A program made the position numbers and the translations under genes. Under the pieces are notes generated by a model. That model made no database searches and was not told the origin of the DNA. It saw only the letters and a program-made list of their open reading frames with translations. From IMG/VR virus record IMGVR_UViG_3300009684_000118, positions 1 to 30,401 of that record: a DNA stretch of 30,401 bases. One strand, written 5' to 3'. Shown piece by piece: positions 445 to 26,899 of this stretch; positions within the stretch are counted from its first letter, which is position 1; the number at the start of each line of letters is the position of its first letter. Source of the DNA: a virus.

Positions 445-1185
445 TTATGTGGTGCAAGCGCAATCAAAAGCAGGTGTTATTTTTGATAAATCTTGCTCTT
501 TAAATAAATTATTTTGAGCTATTTGCAATAAAGTTCTATATGTTATATCAGGAAAATAAGTATGACCACCAAATTTGCCATCTTTTTGTGCCTCATCTTC
601 ATCTTCAATCCATTCTTTTGCAAGTTCTGGATATGAAGATAAAATATTTATAATGGCATTTTTACCCTTCATAAAGCAAAGCGTGCAATTTCCAAGTATA
701 GATGCTATTTCAAGTGTATATGGTTTTTGACTCCAATAGTTATTTATCATATCTTTTGTTATTCCTTGTTCGTATAAAGGAAATTTATCAAATACCTTTT
801 TATAATTTTGTTTCCTTCTATTAACTCGCAATGGCTCATCCGCTCTGAATCCTATGAAATTTTCAAATGTTTGAATGCCAATGCTTCGCAAATATCTTTT
901 ACAAGTTTTAATTTTTAACTCATCTGTGCAAATCCTTTTTACTCTGTTAGGTATTACTTTATGATTTTTCTTTTTTAGCAATGCACTAAATGGATTCTCT
1001 TCATTATTCCACTTCAATCTTATGATGGGTATATTTTCAAATGCTTCAAAGTCATTAATAAACTTGTATGTTTTTTCATGTTCTCTTCCTGTGTCGCAAA
1101 ATATAACAAGGTCACCTTCACGATATTCATGAATGGTCATGTATGCAGATGTTTTTCCTCCGCTAAAATTTATTACTCTTTTCAT
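445..1185 (-). CDS. PAPS reductase-like ATP pyrophosphatase family protein
   Basis: The 246-residue protein opens with the PP-loop SGGKTS (residues 8-13), the ATP pyrophosphatase signature of the PAPS reductase / DndC-like group. RICTDELKIK at 85-92 resembles the CysH pattern after the substrate site. GNCTLCFMKGK (C167, C170), C86, and a terminal CAC (C242, C244) could supply ligands for an iron-sulfur cluster. Homologues with this GNC-x2-C-FLKG pattern are widespread in phages and usually annotated as phosphoadenosine phosphosulfate reductase; their real substrate is unknown. The ATG overlaps the stop of the primase-helicase gene by 4 bases, so they are co-translated. Because it sits with replication genes and a methyltransferase, a role in nucleic-acid modification is possible but unproven. 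Confidence 0.75.
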   Translation of the reverse strand: MKRVINFSGGKTSAYMTIHEYREGDLVIFCDTGREHEKTYKFINDFEAFENIPIIRLKWNNEENPFSALLKKKNHKVIPNRVKRICTDELKIKTCKRYLRSIGIQTFENFIGFRADEPLRVNRRKQNYKKVFDKFPLYEQGITKDMINNYWSQKPYTLEIASILGNCTLCFMKGKNAIINILSSYPELAKEWIEDEDEAQKDGKFGGHTYFPDITYRTLLQIAQNNLFKEQDLSKITPAFDCACTT

Positions 1186-2930
1186 ATTTGAACGTATTGA
1201 CGTGTTAATGTGTTGTAATTATAAGATGCAAATCCAATCTTTCCTTGCCATGAGAATCTAACTTTTTGAACATAAATGTTGACACTATTATCGGAAAAAT
1301 TTCGATGAACACTGATGCCGTTGTCAGTTTTATTAAAGAAATGAGCGCTACCTGCTATGTCGTACATAGTTGCAACTGGATATTGACCGGTGTTGTCTTT
1401 CATTAATTTTCTCGGATGCGCAACAATAAAAACATGAGTGTCAGTTTTAACTGCAAATTCCTTTACCATTGTAAGTACTTCGCTTATGTATTGTGTCTCT
1501 GAATAGTTTGCAGGCACTTTATGTTCGATGTAATTCCAAGGATCAATTACTACACCTTTAATACCTTTGCGCCTTACAAGTTCTTGCATCTTGTTAAGGA
1601 TGGATTCCATTGTCACTTCTATCTTATTGATGTTTACAAAGAAATAATTGTCATCAACAAAAACAATTGACTCTTTGAATTGGTCATCATCCATTCTATT
1701 TGTGTAATCTTTGCGGAAATCGAATGCAAGTCCTGAATGCTTTTCCATTAATTTAGTAACGTGAATTGACGCAGGATTCTCAAATGAACATAATCCCCAT
1801 TTCCAACAATGCTTTTTGCTTAACGATGTTGTGATGTAATCAATAAATTCTGATTTGCCGGAATTAGGACTACCAGTTACAATTGTCATTTGACCACCGC
1901 TAAAGGTAAGGTATTCATCAAATTCGCCAATGCCTGCTTCGCATCCTTTAGGATAACCATTCAATCTAAAATCAAGCACTTGCTCATAAACATCTTCAAC
2001 CGATATAATACCTTCAATCGGGTATTGTTTTGCATGACTTATCATTCGCTCAATGGTTTCTTTGCCTTCATTGATTAATATCTCATTCGCATCTTTGCGT
2101 ATCGTATCGTATACAACATAACTGCATCTATCAATTCCCAATCGCCTTGCAAGTTCATCACGTAGTTTTATACCCGGTTCATCATTATCGGTAAATATTA
2201 TGATGTGTTTTTTATCTTCGAAATGCTCATAACAATTATCCAAGTACTTCAATTGTTGATTACCTATTGATGCACCATTTGGGACGCTTACAACATTATA
2301 AATGCCTGCCTCATGTAATGATAAGCAATCCATTTCTCCTTCGCATATTATGCAGGTTGACTCATCTTTGATGCCATTAAGATTATAGAAAATTAGTTTT
2401 GAATCTTTATGCAATTTAAAATCCTTATCCTTTGCCCTAAACTTTATATTGATTAAATCATCGTTGATGTAATAATTAAAATTGATAGCCCGTACTTCAT
2501 CCTTTGCTTTAGGCATCCATTCAATTGATTCAGTAACTCCCATTCGCAACAAAGTATTATTTGATATGCCTCTCGTTTCAAAATACTTTATCGTGTCAGG
2601 TGAAAGTTTCTCCAATCTTGGCACTGGCTTTATGTATTCCTTTCCTTCATTTTGCACTTCAATTCCATACTTTGCAGCAATTGTTTTAATGCTATCAATA
2701 TAATTTAAGTTTTGATAGTCCATTAAAAATTGAATTGCATCGCCAGACTTACCACATCCAAAACATTTATAGATTTGTTTATCCTTTGAAACTTTGAAAG
2801 AAGGTGTCTTTTCATTATGGAATGGGCAATTGGCAACCATTTCGCTGCCTTCCTTTTTAAGTTTGATATGCTCTGAAATTATATCAATGATTTCAGCTGC
2901 TTGCTTTATTTCTTCAATGTTTGTTATCAT
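1182..2930 (-). CDS. Bifunctional DNA primase-helicase (T7 gp4-like)
   Basis: A 582-residue protein with three recognisable parts. A DnaG-type zinc finger has C35, H38, C56 and C59 (CPFHNEKTPSF and YKCFGCGKSGDAI). A Toprim domain has the catalytic Glu in CEGEMD (E197) and the metal-binding DND (D248, D250). A RecA-fold helicase domain has Walker A GSPNSGKS (353-360) and a Walker B ending at VVIDPW (D463). This is the architecture of T7 gp4 and Twinkle, which lay down primers and unwind DNA at the fork. The start codon lies 6 bases beyond the T-tract of a terminator-like hairpin, part of a 104-base structured leader, so expression is probably controlled. The stop overlaps the next ATG (ATGA). 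Confidence 0.93.
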   Translation of the reverse strand: MITNIEEIKQAAEIIDIISEHIKLKKEGSEMVANCPFHNEKTPSFKVSKDKQIYKCFGCGKSGDAIQFLMDYQNLNYIDSIKTIAAKYGIEVQNEGKEYIKPVPRLEKLSPDTIKYFETRGISNNTLLRMGVTESIEWMPKAKDEVRAINFNYYINDDLINIKFRAKDKDFKLHKDSKLIFYNLNGIKDESTCIICEGEMDCLSLHEAGIYNVVSVPNGASIGNQQLKYLDNCYEHFEDKKHIIIFTDNDEPGIKLRDELARRLGIDRCSYVVYDTIRKDANEILINEGKETIERMISHAKQYPIEGIISVEDVYEQVLDFRLNGYPKGCEAGIGEFDEYLTFSGGQMTIVTGSPNSGKSEFIDYITTSLSKKHCWKWGLCSFENPASIHVTKLMEKHSGLAFDFRKDYTNRMDDDQFKESIVFVDDNYFFVNINKIEVTMESILNKMQELVRRKGIKGVVIDPWNYIEHKVPANYSETQYISEVLTMVKEFAVKTDTHVFIVAHPRKLMKDNTGQYPVATMYDIAGSAHFFNKTDNGISVHRNFSDNSVNIYVQKVRFSWQGKIGFASYNYNTLTRQYVQI

Positions 2931-2935
2931 GAGAT

Positions 2936-3028
2936 AAAAAAGCAGGTCATCATGTAGTGATAATGATGCCTGCTATTTACTGAAACCTGAAAAACGATTT
3001 GCACAATCACTACTTCGTGTAAATCGTT
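2936..3028 (-). promoter_or_regulatory. Two tandem terminator-like hairpins with complementary loops, in the primase leader
   Basis: In transcript order, hairpin B pairs AACGATTT (2993-3000) with AAATCGTT (3021-3028), plus an inner CAC/GTG after one mismatch, and is followed on the transcribed strand by five T. Hairpin A pairs AGCAGG-CATCAT (2941-2953, with one bulged base) with ATGATGCCTGCT (2963-2974), 12 pairs, and is followed by six T. The loop of A contains GTAGTGAT (2954-2961) and the loop of B contains its exact reverse complement ATCACTAC (3006-3013), so the loops can kiss. This may act as an attenuator between the nuclease and primase genes. Confidence 0.7.
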
Positions 3029-3034
3029 AGAGTG

Positions 3035-3508
3035 CTAAGATAGGATAATTTCCAATGCCGTTACAAAAGCATCTGCATCACTTACAATCATGTAATTACC
3101 GCCTGCATTTTGAACTCGTTCACGCTCTTCGTTTTGCCAATCACTCATCTTGTCTTTTCCTACCTTTATTTCAATTGACCAGTGCTGACCTTTGATGATG
3201 GCATGAATATCTGCAGTACCTTTCTTTGTTGTTGATGGGATGTACTTACCACCAAGCACACGACCTGCGGAAGATATCCTATTTGCATAACCACCATTCC
3301 AATTAATCATATCAATGACAAATCGAGTAAGTCCGTTAGCAGTTTCCACTTTAGGAAACTTTACCACTGGAGTCAGTTTGTTAAGCCAAACATTCGGGAA
3401 ATCTTTTTGGTAGTGCATGTCGTATGCGATGGCATAAGCTACCTGCCAATTAAAATGGTAGGTCTTCAATGAATGGTGCTTTAGTAGTTGATGAATTAGA
3501 TGCATCAT
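3035..3508 (-). CDS. VRR-NUC (PD-(D/E)XK) nuclease
   Basis: The core GTADIHAII-x7-IEIKVGKDKMSDWQ gives the nuclease residues D100, E113 and K115 and a following Gln (Q125), the pattern of the VRR-NUC branch of PD-(D/E)XK enzymes. A GGNYMIVSD strand follows near the C-terminus. In phages such enzymes are replication or recombination nucleases, often suspected to cut branched DNA. The start is uncertain: the ATG at 3508 gives 157 residues but overlaps the SSB-like gene by 59 bases. A TTG at 3469 (LKTYHFNW) or the ATG at 3418 would give shorter proteins that keep the catalytic core. Its stop is followed by the structured primase leader. Confidence 0.8.
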   Translation of the reverse strand: MMHLIHQLLKHHSLKTYHFNWQVAYAIAYDMHYQKDFPNVWLNKLTPVVKFPKVETANGLTRFVIDMINWNGGYANRISSAGRVLGGKYIPSTTKKGTADIHAIIKGQHWSIEIKVGKDKMSDWQNEERERVQNAGGNYMIVSDADAFVTALEIILS

Positions 3509-3777: not shown

Positions 3778-5190
3778 TTAAAGTTTAATATATTTAAAAA
3801 TGTGTGCTATCACATCAACTGTCCAACCATTACCAAGCATCTTATATCGTTGGGAATCGCTTACATGATTTGTATAATTGTCTGCAACAGTTTGCAATCT
3901 TTCGCATTCTATTGGTGTAAGTCTGCGAATGCGTGATGTATTTATCATTGTACTTCCATTCGGTAGTTGTGCTTGAAGAGCTGGACTAATTCCATTTATA
4001 TCATAAATCCTGTCTTGTTGGAATGGTTGAGTTTCTATTATTTGGACATTATTTTTTTGTTTATTTGTTTCCAAAGTTTTAGATTTTTGGTCATTTGAAA
4101 CCTCATATTCTCTTTTGTAAGTTCCATCTTCTTGTGCTTTTCTACCTACTACTTGTTCTTTTGCTCCGTTTGCTACTATTTCAATTGCATTAGTATTACC
4201 TGTATCAAGACTATAAGTTTTTCCATCATTTCTGCTTAAATGACCACTACCACCTGCGTTTTTATTCTTTTGTATTGATGGGCGATTTGGGTCTCTACGT
4301 TGGGTGTTGTGAACAATTAAATCCCAATTATGCTTATCAGTTGCTGTGCTACTACCACCAGTGCGAACAGTTCTTGCCTTTGCATTTAAATCTAATCCAG
4401 TAAACTCTTTATCTTTTATTACTATTTGATTGTATGGAATCCCACTTTGATAACGAGCAACAACACATCCACTTTTGTCATCATCTTCATTCATTTGAAA
4501 TGCCAAATTTCTTTGATTCCTATTTATGTATGCTATTGATTTCTCACTCAAGAAATATTTTTCATCAACTTCTGTTTCTAAAACATCACGAAGCAAAATT
4601 CCTTTATCCTTTGGTTGTTCAATAATGCTTTCCAAATCACCAAATAATCCAGCAGGTTTCATTCCTATGTTTGTCCAATAAATGCGTTTGCGATTTTGTG
4701 CTGATACCAATGCTGAATTGATATGGATGCCATTAACACCAATTGCTTTGCTCAATACCTTTTCCCATTTTTCACCCATCTCAACATTCTCTAATAAAAA
4801 ATACTTTGGCTTTACTTCATTAAGTAATCGCATATACTCCCAAAATAAATACGATTGTCCTTCAAATTCGTATCCTTCTGATTTTAGTTGTAGATAATGG
4901 TCAAGTGTCAATATTTCTTGTTCATCTTTTGTACTCATTCCTTTTCTTTTGCCTGCAAATGAAAACGACTGACAAGGTGATCCACCAATAAGCAAATCTA
5001 TTTTGGGCAATGAATATCCATTTACATTAACTACACTGCCTAATTGAATTGTATAAGGATAATTTGCCATTGTAACTTTAATTGCATACTTATCAATTTC
5101 AGATGCATAATAATTAGTTACTTTAATACCTGCTCTTTCAAGGGCTTGTTGCCCACAGGACATTCCATCGAATAATGATAGTACAATCAT
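3778..5190 (-). CDS. DNA (cytosine-5) methyltransferase
   Basis: This 470-residue protein shows the C5-methyltransferase motifs in order: SLFDGMSCG (I, SAM binding), GGSPCQSFS with the catalytic C73 (IV), ENVE at 134-137 (VI), QNRKR at 165-169 (VIII), and a C-terminal RRLTPIECERLQ followed by MLGNGWTVDVI (IX-X). The stretch from about 215 to 400 is the target recognition region and is unusually long and polar. There is no partner restriction enzyme in the window, so this is an orphan phage enzyme, likely protecting phage DNA from host restriction or marking it. The ATG overlaps the stop of the 48-residue upstream gene by 3 bases. Confidence 0.93.
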   Translation of the reverse strand: MIVLSLFDGMSCGQQALERAGIKVTNYYASEIDKYAIKVTMANYPYTIQLGSVVNVNGYSLPKIDLLIGGSPCQSFSFAGKRKGMSTKDEQEILTLDHYLQLKSEGYEFEGQSYLFWEYMRLLNEVKPKYFLLENVEMGEKWEKVLSKAIGVNGIHINSALVSAQNRKRIYWTNIGMKPAGLFGDLESIIEQPKDKGILLRDVLETEVDEKYFLSEKSIAYINRNQRNLAFQMNEDDDKSGCVVARYQSGIPYNQIVIKDKEFTGLDLNAKARTVRTGGSSTATDKHNWDLIVHNTQRRDPNRPSIQKNKNAGGSGHLSRNDGKTYSLDTGNTNAIEIVANGAKEQVVGRKAQEDGTYKREYEVSNDQKSKTLETNKQKNNVQIIETQPFQQDRIYDINGISPALQAQLPNGSTMINTSRIRRLTPIECERLQTVADNYTNHVSDSQRYKMLGNGWTVDVIAHIFKYIKL

Positions 5191-18435: not shown

Positions 18436-18466
18436 AAAAAACCACCGACTTCATATCGGTCGGTGG
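18436..18466 (-). terminator. Intrinsic terminator after the tail-tube-like gene
   Basis: CCACCGAC (18442-18449) pairs with GTCGGTGG (18459-18466) around a 9-base loop. On the transcribed minus strand the hairpin is followed by six T (18441-18436). GC-rich stem in an AT-rich region, so it stands out clearly. It follows the tail-tube-like gene and precedes the gene before the portal. Confidence 0.85.
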
Positions 18467-18489
18467 CTTCCTATTTAGTTTTTCAATTA

Positions 18490-25783: not shown

Positions 25784-26899
25784 TTATCTCAAGTGTGAGT
25801 ATCTTGTTTGATTCATTTCGAAATCAATCTCTAATGCTCTTTGCCTGTTGTTGACATACTTACTATACTCGTAGTTAGAATTCTTAATTGTAACAGGATA
25901 AAAATAACTATCAATCTCCATAAGTATTTGACCTGAATTAATCAACTGCGACGACCATTGGTAGTCAGTATCATTCATCGCATCAGCAGTCAAACGATAT
26001 GACCAGTTCATTTTGTTGGAGTAGTTGATTTTGCTTTCTACATACTTATTATTGCCATCGTCATATTGAACATTAGTGCCATTAAAAATGAAATCTCTTT
26101 TCTCAAATCCTTTGCGTTCTACGTCCATTGTAAGTCTTGATACCAAGTCAAAATGAATCGTATCCCACATTCCAAAACGATTCAAGAAATGCACAGGCAC
26201 GGTATCATATTTTGGATTGCATTTGTTGTATATCCTTAATTTATCTACTGCGCTATCAGTAAAAACTTCAACATATTTTGCATTGACTGATAAAGCGTAA
26301 TTTAAAATTGGTTTAAGATTTACTTGAGTAAACATATATGGCATAGTTTCAACAGTATTAAAAATCAGTGCATTGCTATTATTATAAACATAATAGTAAA
26401 TGCTTGATGAACCACCTCCATAATTGCTACCAATAAACAAAGACTCATTAAAATCAGCATATAAAGTGCGATTTCTTTCCGTAAAAAATTTTGATTGATA
26501 GTCTGCAATTGGTCCTTCATTAAATCTTTTAAACAAATCAGGTCTCCAATTATAGACTCTTGTTGTTCCGCTTGCAAGATTAAGTGTGGTTGTTCCGCTA
26601 TATTCCTCACCATATCTAACTTGGTATTCTTTTTGCAATGGTGCTTCTTGATATTGAGCAGTTGCATCAAACCAACCATAGTCAATGCTATTGCGAATAA
26701 TCGGTCCTGCATCAAAGTATCCATAGGTTGTACCTGGCTCAGGATATTGTTTTACTCGTATCTTTTGCACCCCACCAATATAAACATCAAACACATATTT
26801 AAAATCAGGTATTGCACTATGATTGCTGCTTACAATATGCCATAACCCATCCTGTATTGATTCACTATTTGATGGTGTATTTTCAATTCCTATTGCCAT
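25784..26899 (-). CDS. Tail protein (distal-tail or minor tail candidate)
   Basis: The protein (371 residues) starts MAIGIENTPSNSESIQDGLW and is rich in aromatic residues and Asn, with many beta strands (FKYVFDVYIGGVQKIRVKQY, YFDAGPIIRNSIDYGWFD). Its position before the hub-like protein and tape-measure gene fits a distal-tail or adaptor role. Its start overlaps the stop of the 207-residue gene by one base. No known motif was recognised. Confidence 0.55.
   Translation of the reverse strand: MAIGIENTPSNSESIQDGLWHIVSSNHSAIPDFKYVFDVYIGGVQKIRVKQYPEPGTTYGYFDAGPIIRNSIDYGWFDATAQYQEAPLQKEYQVRYGEEYSGTTTLNLASGTTRVYNWRPDLFKRFNEGPIADYQSKFFTERNRTLYADFNESLFIGSNYGGGSSSIYYYVYNNSNALIFNTVETMPYMFTQVNLKPILNYALSVNAKYVEVFTDSAVDKLRIYNKCNPKYDTVPVHFLNRFGMWDTIHFDLVSRLTMDVERKGFEKRDFIFNGTNVQYDDGNNKYVESKINYSNKMNWSYRLTADAMNDTDYQWSSQLINSGQILMEIDSYFYPVTIKNSNYEYSKYVNNRQRALEIDFEMNQTRYSHLR

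Follow-up and report, generated by a model that had tools for sequence, protein, structure and literature searches.

The window analyzed here is the whole 30.4-kb virus record IMGVR_UViG_3300009684_000118 (positions 1 to 30,401), with a G+C content of 36%. We consider it a phage of Bacteroidota-type hosts because its proteins are related to those of Flavobacterium, Cellulophaga, and Tenacibaculum phages, and because the nearest copies among bacterial assemblies are found in Saprospiraceae and Chitinophagaceae MAGs. The region of interest lies in a run of minus-strand genes that encode, in order of transcription, a cytosine methylase (3778-5190), a nuclease/resolvase-like protein (3035..3508) and, after a gap of 104 nt (3034-2931), a primase-helicase (1182..2930), a PAPS-reductase-like protein (445-1185), and a Lin1244-type replication initiator (2-463). 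The primase-helicase matches phrog_239 (E 6e-93) as well as PF01807, PF13155, and PF03796 of Pfam (DnaG-type zinc ribbon, Toprim, and DnaB-like helicase). The product of the gene at 3035..3508 matches the phrog_93 endonuclease (E 2e-7) and the phrog_5702 Holliday junction resolvase (E 2e-5); no match was obtained for it in a Pfam search, and it was judged VRR-NUC-like by eye. A sequence-only reading of the window had placed a pair of hairpins at a boundary between recombination and replication genes, and this location held, with the nuclease/resolvase-like gene upstream and the primase-helicase gene downstream.

Two hairpins with complementary loops

The two stem-loops described in that reading do fill the 104-nt gap; the fold, the coordinates, and the gap length all agree. 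On the minus strand, the 5'-terminal hairpin P1 (2993..3028, from the MFE fold and its stems) has the loop GUAGUGAU and is followed by five Ts. The fold then gives an 18-nt linker (2975..2992) and P3 (2941..2974), a terminator-like hairpin of 12 pairs with the loop AUCACUAC and an abutting T-run (2936..2941). P3 ends 10 nt before the primase-helicase ATG at 2930, rather than the 12 bases first given. The P1 loop carries the kissing word K1, GTAGTGAT (3006..3013, minus strand), and the P3 loop carries K2, ATCACTAC (2954..2961, minus strand). The loops had been called perfectly complementary, and K1 and K2 are indeed 8-mers that are exact reverse complements of one another. The last U of K1 sits in the P1 stem in the MFE fold (unpaired probability 0.05), which leaves 7 to 8 pairs for the loop-loop contact. 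Only 1 of 200 shuffles folds as well as or better than the leader region (z -3.25), and the kissing words are rare elsewhere in the window, with two plus-strand occurrences of GTAGTGAT and one of ATCACTAC. In this one genome taken alone, the loop match might be luck, but the comparative evidence given below shows otherwise. At 18455-18489, the window also has a lone terminator-like hairpin of the ordinary kind, with a T-run and the next ATG near; it has neither a promoter box nor a partner hairpin.

Conservation of the loop pairing

An alignment-based search for relatives of the primase gave 80 loci. In most of them, the primase start overlaps the preceding gene by 4 nt and there is no leader; the leader is kept in a subset that has a nuclease gene upstream. 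In relatives found via the upstream nuclease alone (L008-L012), different genes follow the nuclease directly, and the junction holds no leader. The loops of leader-keeping relatives are complementary with letters unlike those of the window: GAGGGA/TCCCTC in L016, ATTGCGC/GCGCAAT in L018, and GTAAGGAG/CTCCTTAC in L015/L017. In the close pair L073 (GTAGGAG/CTCCTAC) and L118 (ATAGGAG/CTCCTAT), the loop pair is altered on both sides. Pairing with other letters was also seen in L188 and in dozens of leaders of initiator genes. Relatives without conserved pairing, which the sequence-only reading had named as evidence that would speak against it, were found in one group (L022-L029/L062/L082) retaining only one short terminator hairpin; against this stand the leader-keeping relatives that pair with other letters. 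The loops of L020/L021 (GTCACAG/CTGTGAC) are complementary by eye, but this pair was not picked up by the scan and was left out of the counts. In L002, another phage, whose primase is related at its N-terminus, a single terminator-like hairpin directly precedes the primase start (2936-2992).

The loop pairing was found well above chance in several sets. Among 71 unique regions 5' of a replication-initiator gene, retrieved by protein similarity, two hairpins with complementary loops were detected in 37 (score of at least 24), with 1.1 expected from shuffling. A scan anchored on a -7-like promoter box and blind to both the T-run and the ATG (score of at least 26) returned 62 matches, about 24 of them non-redundant, vs 1.6 in shuffles. 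When whole contigs were scanned with neither a promoter nor an ATG requirement, a clear excess was seen only at strict settings, with one or two elements per genome. Two further tests were blind to the pairing itself. The first took 75 intergenic terminator-like hairpins located shortly 5' of an ATG, 38 of which have an upstream hairpin; at least 6 complementary loop nucleotides were found in 16 of these 38 leaders, a set that includes some near-duplicates, vs about 1.1 with permuted partners (maximum of 6 in 200 permutations). The second used only the first and last MFE hairpin loops of a separate initiator set of 26 de-duplicated leaders, and 11 of the 26 reached at least 6, vs 0.7 with permuted partners and a maximum of 4.3 in 2000 permutations. 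Across elements, the loop words pair over 6-10 nt, and 23 distinct K1 words occur among 41 elements.

The sequence-only reading had also proposed looking for covariation in related phages, and this check bore it out. In one alignable subfamily of 17 leaders with 7 kissing pairs, the pairs are formed in 119/119 cells and 5/7 of them have changed on both sides. The covariation score of the kissing helix is 0.651, compared with 0.166 for shuffled alignments and at most 0.126 for slid controls; for the whole structure, it is 0.506 vs 0.156. The loops are thus kept complementary by compensatory changes, as in a kissing-loop RNA structure, and the loop pairing is under selection. A chance loop match was ruled out by the permutation, shuffle, and covariation tests. 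These results also bear on whether the element might be two ordinary terminators placed back to back, with loops that match by chance. Tandem terminators are common, and the window has another intergenic terminator-like hairpin. However, the complementarity is conserved while the letters change, a promoter lies directly 5' of the first hairpin (see below), and P1 has no consistent T-run; with the covariation and permutation tests against it as well, we rejected this explanation and give it almost no credence.

It should be noted that the selected, functional molecule is the sense RNA, given an excess of G.U over A.C (99 vs 45, p 8e-6) under a strand-symmetric scoring that treats G.T and A.C alike. 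This result weighs against a function at the DNA level, such as a replication origin, a cruciform, or inverted repeats bound by a protein, which the inverted repeats and their location beside replication genes might have suggested. The promoter and the T-run both point in the gene direction, which gives the element a fixed polarity, copies also precede homing endonuclease genes, and the elements share no sequence that a protein could read. A DNA-level element was discarded on the G.U excess and the polarity, and we regard it as highly improbable.

No ligand-like conserved nucleotides are common to all subfamilies. One subfamily (the L309-L352 group, about 60-100 nt 5' of the initiator ATG) has a conserved linker word, ACTTATTG, and its P3 is split by conserved internal loops beneath the kissing hairpin. 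Another has the arrangement GGGGATGG-[K2]-CCTGAACC. The conserved bases of these two subfamilies could be a binding or kink motif. In addition, the P1-P3 linker holds a third small hairpin in L016, L034, L057, L060, L066, and L188, which, where it folds, would work against a kissing contact in cis.

Putative promoter and terminator, and a proposed attenuation mechanism

The sigma-A promoters of Bacteroidota have a -7 box, TAnnTTTG, and a -33 element, TTTG (PMC7366714, PMC6847099); the -7 box lies at -12 to -5 relative to the start (PMC9723704, PMC6847099). We searched for these boxes in a set of 41 elements that had been picked without regard to the promoter. A strict TAnnTTTG is present directly 5' of P1 in 30 of the 41 elements vs a background of 1.1%, and a relaxed box in 36/41 vs 2.1%. 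The distance from the box to P1 is mostly 0-6 nt, and the transcript start should therefore fall within a few bases of P1. At the other end, a T-run of at least 4 lies between P3 and the ATG in 39/41 elements; one element (G014) has no proper T-run after the P3 stem. At the sequence level, the features of terminator-based transcription attenuators are thus found in most of the set: the -7 box, the T-run, and an ATG about 10 nt on. The description of both hairpins as followed by T-runs fits P1 and P3 of the window, whereas across elements it generally fits only P3.

The window itself has a variant of the -7 box, TATCTTAG (3035..3042, minus strand), which overlaps the stop codon of the upstream gene, and a -33-like TTTG 21 nt away (3064..3067, minus strand), a single match that is weak taken alone. 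Because TATCTTAG is non-consensus and weaker than TAnnTTTG, a promoter with a predicted +1 near 3030 is likely rather than certain here; a similar variant, TAACTTAG, is found in G048. On this basis, we expect a 5' leader some 95 nt long, with the order promoter, P1, linker, putative P3 terminator, and start codon. In most elements, the end of P3 and its T-run lies about 8-17 nt from the ATG. No separate promoter fits in this space, and the gene must therefore be read through P3.

We propose, with moderate confidence, that the gap is a 5' leader through which transcription of the primase-helicase gene is attenuated, with loops that kiss in cis. The polymerase would start at the base of P1, with the -7 box directly upstream, and would go on through P1 and the short linker into P3, which would be an intrinsic terminator with its T-run close to the start codon. 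P1 and P3 would be joined by a loop-loop (kissing) helix of 7-8 bp. As K2 would emerge before the 3' arm of P3, P1 could capture it first, and this capture would affect terminator formation by P3, either in whether P3 closes at all or in how well it does so. The gene would be expressed only from read-through transcripts. When folding of the growing RNA was modeled, the alternative with K1 and K2 paired was briefly the MFE structure at 78 nt, a length at which the 3' arm of P3 has yet to be synthesized. Sequence statistics back the stems, the loop pairing, the promoter position, the T-run, RNA rather than DNA as the active form, and the recurrence before replication genes. We infer that P3 terminates and that kissing tunes termination, and we lean toward an antitermination role for the kissing, like the one proposed for guanidine-IV. 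The leader would probably limit the amount of replication protein through an early transcription stop. A linker too short for cis kissing was ruled out: pulled taut, it is long enough in 49/55 elements to bridge the two full stems and the kissing helix together. Kissing therefore need not strain the terminator; the geometry allows such strain but does not force it.

A rival possibility is a structured 5' mRNA cap, in which the kissing pair protects the 5' end from nucleases or positions a U-rich start for ribosomes, and P3 does not function in termination. In its favor, the predicted transcript start coincides with the beginning of P1, P3 is close to the ATG in most elements, and structure and bases near the start are known to tune initiation in Bacteroidota (PMC6847099). 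Nevertheless, a hairpin abutting a T-run, as in 39/41 elements, is the mark of an intrinsic terminator, and many elements have U rather than the favorable A at -3, which is poor for Bacteroidota initiation. We find this alternative fairly unlikely.

The sequence-only reading had likened the design to both attenuators and copy-control RNAs. The attenuator-like layout is supported, with a tandem-hairpin leader, complementary loops, and a terminator-like second hairpin; copy control by a separate antisense RNA is not. ColE1 RNAI/RNAII, pT181, and pIP501 control replication genes, in part by attenuation, with an antisense transcript from an opposing promoter, and the kissing RNAs of plasmid copy control have loops of about 7 nt that are wholly engaged in the loop-loop helix. 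The kissing loops of about 7 nt and the link to replication genes are alike here, but opposing promoters of the -7 box type are not enriched: strict antisense -7 boxes occur in 2/41 elements vs a background of about 10%. A conventional cis-antisense RNA was therefore dropped.

A further alternative is self-control in trans, in the manner of P4 CI RNA or plasmid copy control. The terminated leader of about 95 nt carries both kissing loops and might pair with leaders of the same phage as they are transcribed; as it accumulates with rising copy number, expression of the replication genes would be repressed or derepressed. The element precedes initiator and primase genes, its words of 7-8 nt and loops of 7-10 nt are well sized for kissing between molecules, and the loop words are phage-specific; genomes or loci with two clear elements (G002, G048, L030, and L039) carry different words in their copies. 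RNA-driven premature termination is also how P4 blocks its replication genes (PMC4825925). On the other hand, the partner loops are about 40-60 nt apart in one molecule, which strongly favors cis pairing, antisense promoter boxes are not enriched, and the element also serves homing endonuclease genes, which need no copy control. We judge self-control in trans rather unlikely. In its boldest form, one short leader would be both regulator and target: through private loop words, the terminated leader of each phage would bind newly made leaders in trans, and phages sharing those words could gauge their own copy number or shut one another out with no separate antisense gene. This form seems to us quite improbable. 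Attenuation in cis remains our preferred reading.

Relation to known RNAs and genes served

By architecture, the closest analogue of the leader is the guanidine-IV riboswitch, whose conserved pocket is absent here. Guanidine-IV (GGAM-1 or mepA motif) consists of two hairpins, the second being an intrinsic terminator directly before the start codon, and loop kissing is proposed to stretch the linker and to open the terminator base or stop its closing (PMC7736828). Both are two-hairpin leaders in which the terminator loop kisses an upstream loop, as indicated here by the covariation of the kissing helix. Guanidine-IV, however, has highly conserved guanidine-binding loop nucleotides, whereas the loop words vary freely in our elements, and it precedes sugE and transporter genes instead of phage replication or homing endonuclease genes. 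No match of the element to the guanidine-IV family model was found in Rfam. Guanidine-II (mini-ykkC) also has tandem hairpins with kissing loops, but its conserved ACGR tetraloops and ligand pocket are absent here. T4-type PeSLs (promoter-early stem-loop cassettes) are units of a promoter and a stem-loop between phage genes, also beside mobile endonuclease genes; the unit is alike, while its promoter and hosts differ from those of the leader, and we know of no description of kissing loops or of a terminator-ATG leader layout in PeSLs. In P4 immunity (CI RNA, seqA/seqC), complementary leader RNA segments control premature termination before replication genes (PMC4825925). The P4 CI or C4-type RNAs resemble our leader in that complementary stretches of untranslated RNA precede phage replication genes. 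In P4, a processed RNA acts in trans on two targets; here, the two partners are adjacent hairpin loops within a single leader, and we found no separate RNA.

No Rfam family, including P4 CI and C4 antisense RNA, matched at the gathering score, and the matches in the window at permissive E-values were weak and mostly eukaryotic snoRNA/miRNA noise. No description of a kissing-hairpin leader was found in the open-access literature searched. The element would be a previously unlisted, recurrent class of structured leader, located at genes that set the start of replication, in phages of Bacteroidota-type hosts, a group in which little is known of RNA regulation. With the pairing kept and the letters free, it offers a clean natural series on a question raised by guanidine-IV, namely how termination responds when the loop of a terminator hairpin is engaged by another loop. 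If replication proteins are indeed limited by the leader, this would account for the way in which early replication is metered in these phages, and its orthogonal loop words could serve as ready-made attenuators in Bacteroidota.

Judging from these sequences, the predicted element is spread across many uncultured phages of Bacteroidota-type bacteria, the pairing being the same and the sequences different. All carriers are uncultured virus records or MAG contigs. At the cut-off used, no element was found in the named-phage stretches searched (Porphyromonas phages, Flavobacterium phage 1/32, vB_RanS_PJN03, EF62phi, LBR48, and L004-L007), and 400 kb of a Chitinophaga chromosome gave no element, only four chance-like matches without a promoter box. 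Initiator loci were present in 8/395 Bacteroidota genomes, with no element at or above the cut-off.

The primase-helicase gene follows the element in the window, G001, and G048; the other genes served encode Lin1244-type initiators and homing endonucleases (HNH and GIY-YIG, both by eye). Genes resembling homing endonucleases have their own promoter and kissing leader in L030 (490-1301), L039 (4258-4689), G014 (near 26832, minus orientation), and L017 (1831-2503). The leader may travel with homing endonuclease genes. In L015/L017, an HNH gene sits between the leader and the primase gene. Finally, in G027 and G029, the nuclease gene is replaced, and the gene 5' of the leader ends in a sequence that resembles DnaA domain IV by eye (LGRRDHTTIIHS / LGGRDHTTIIHN).
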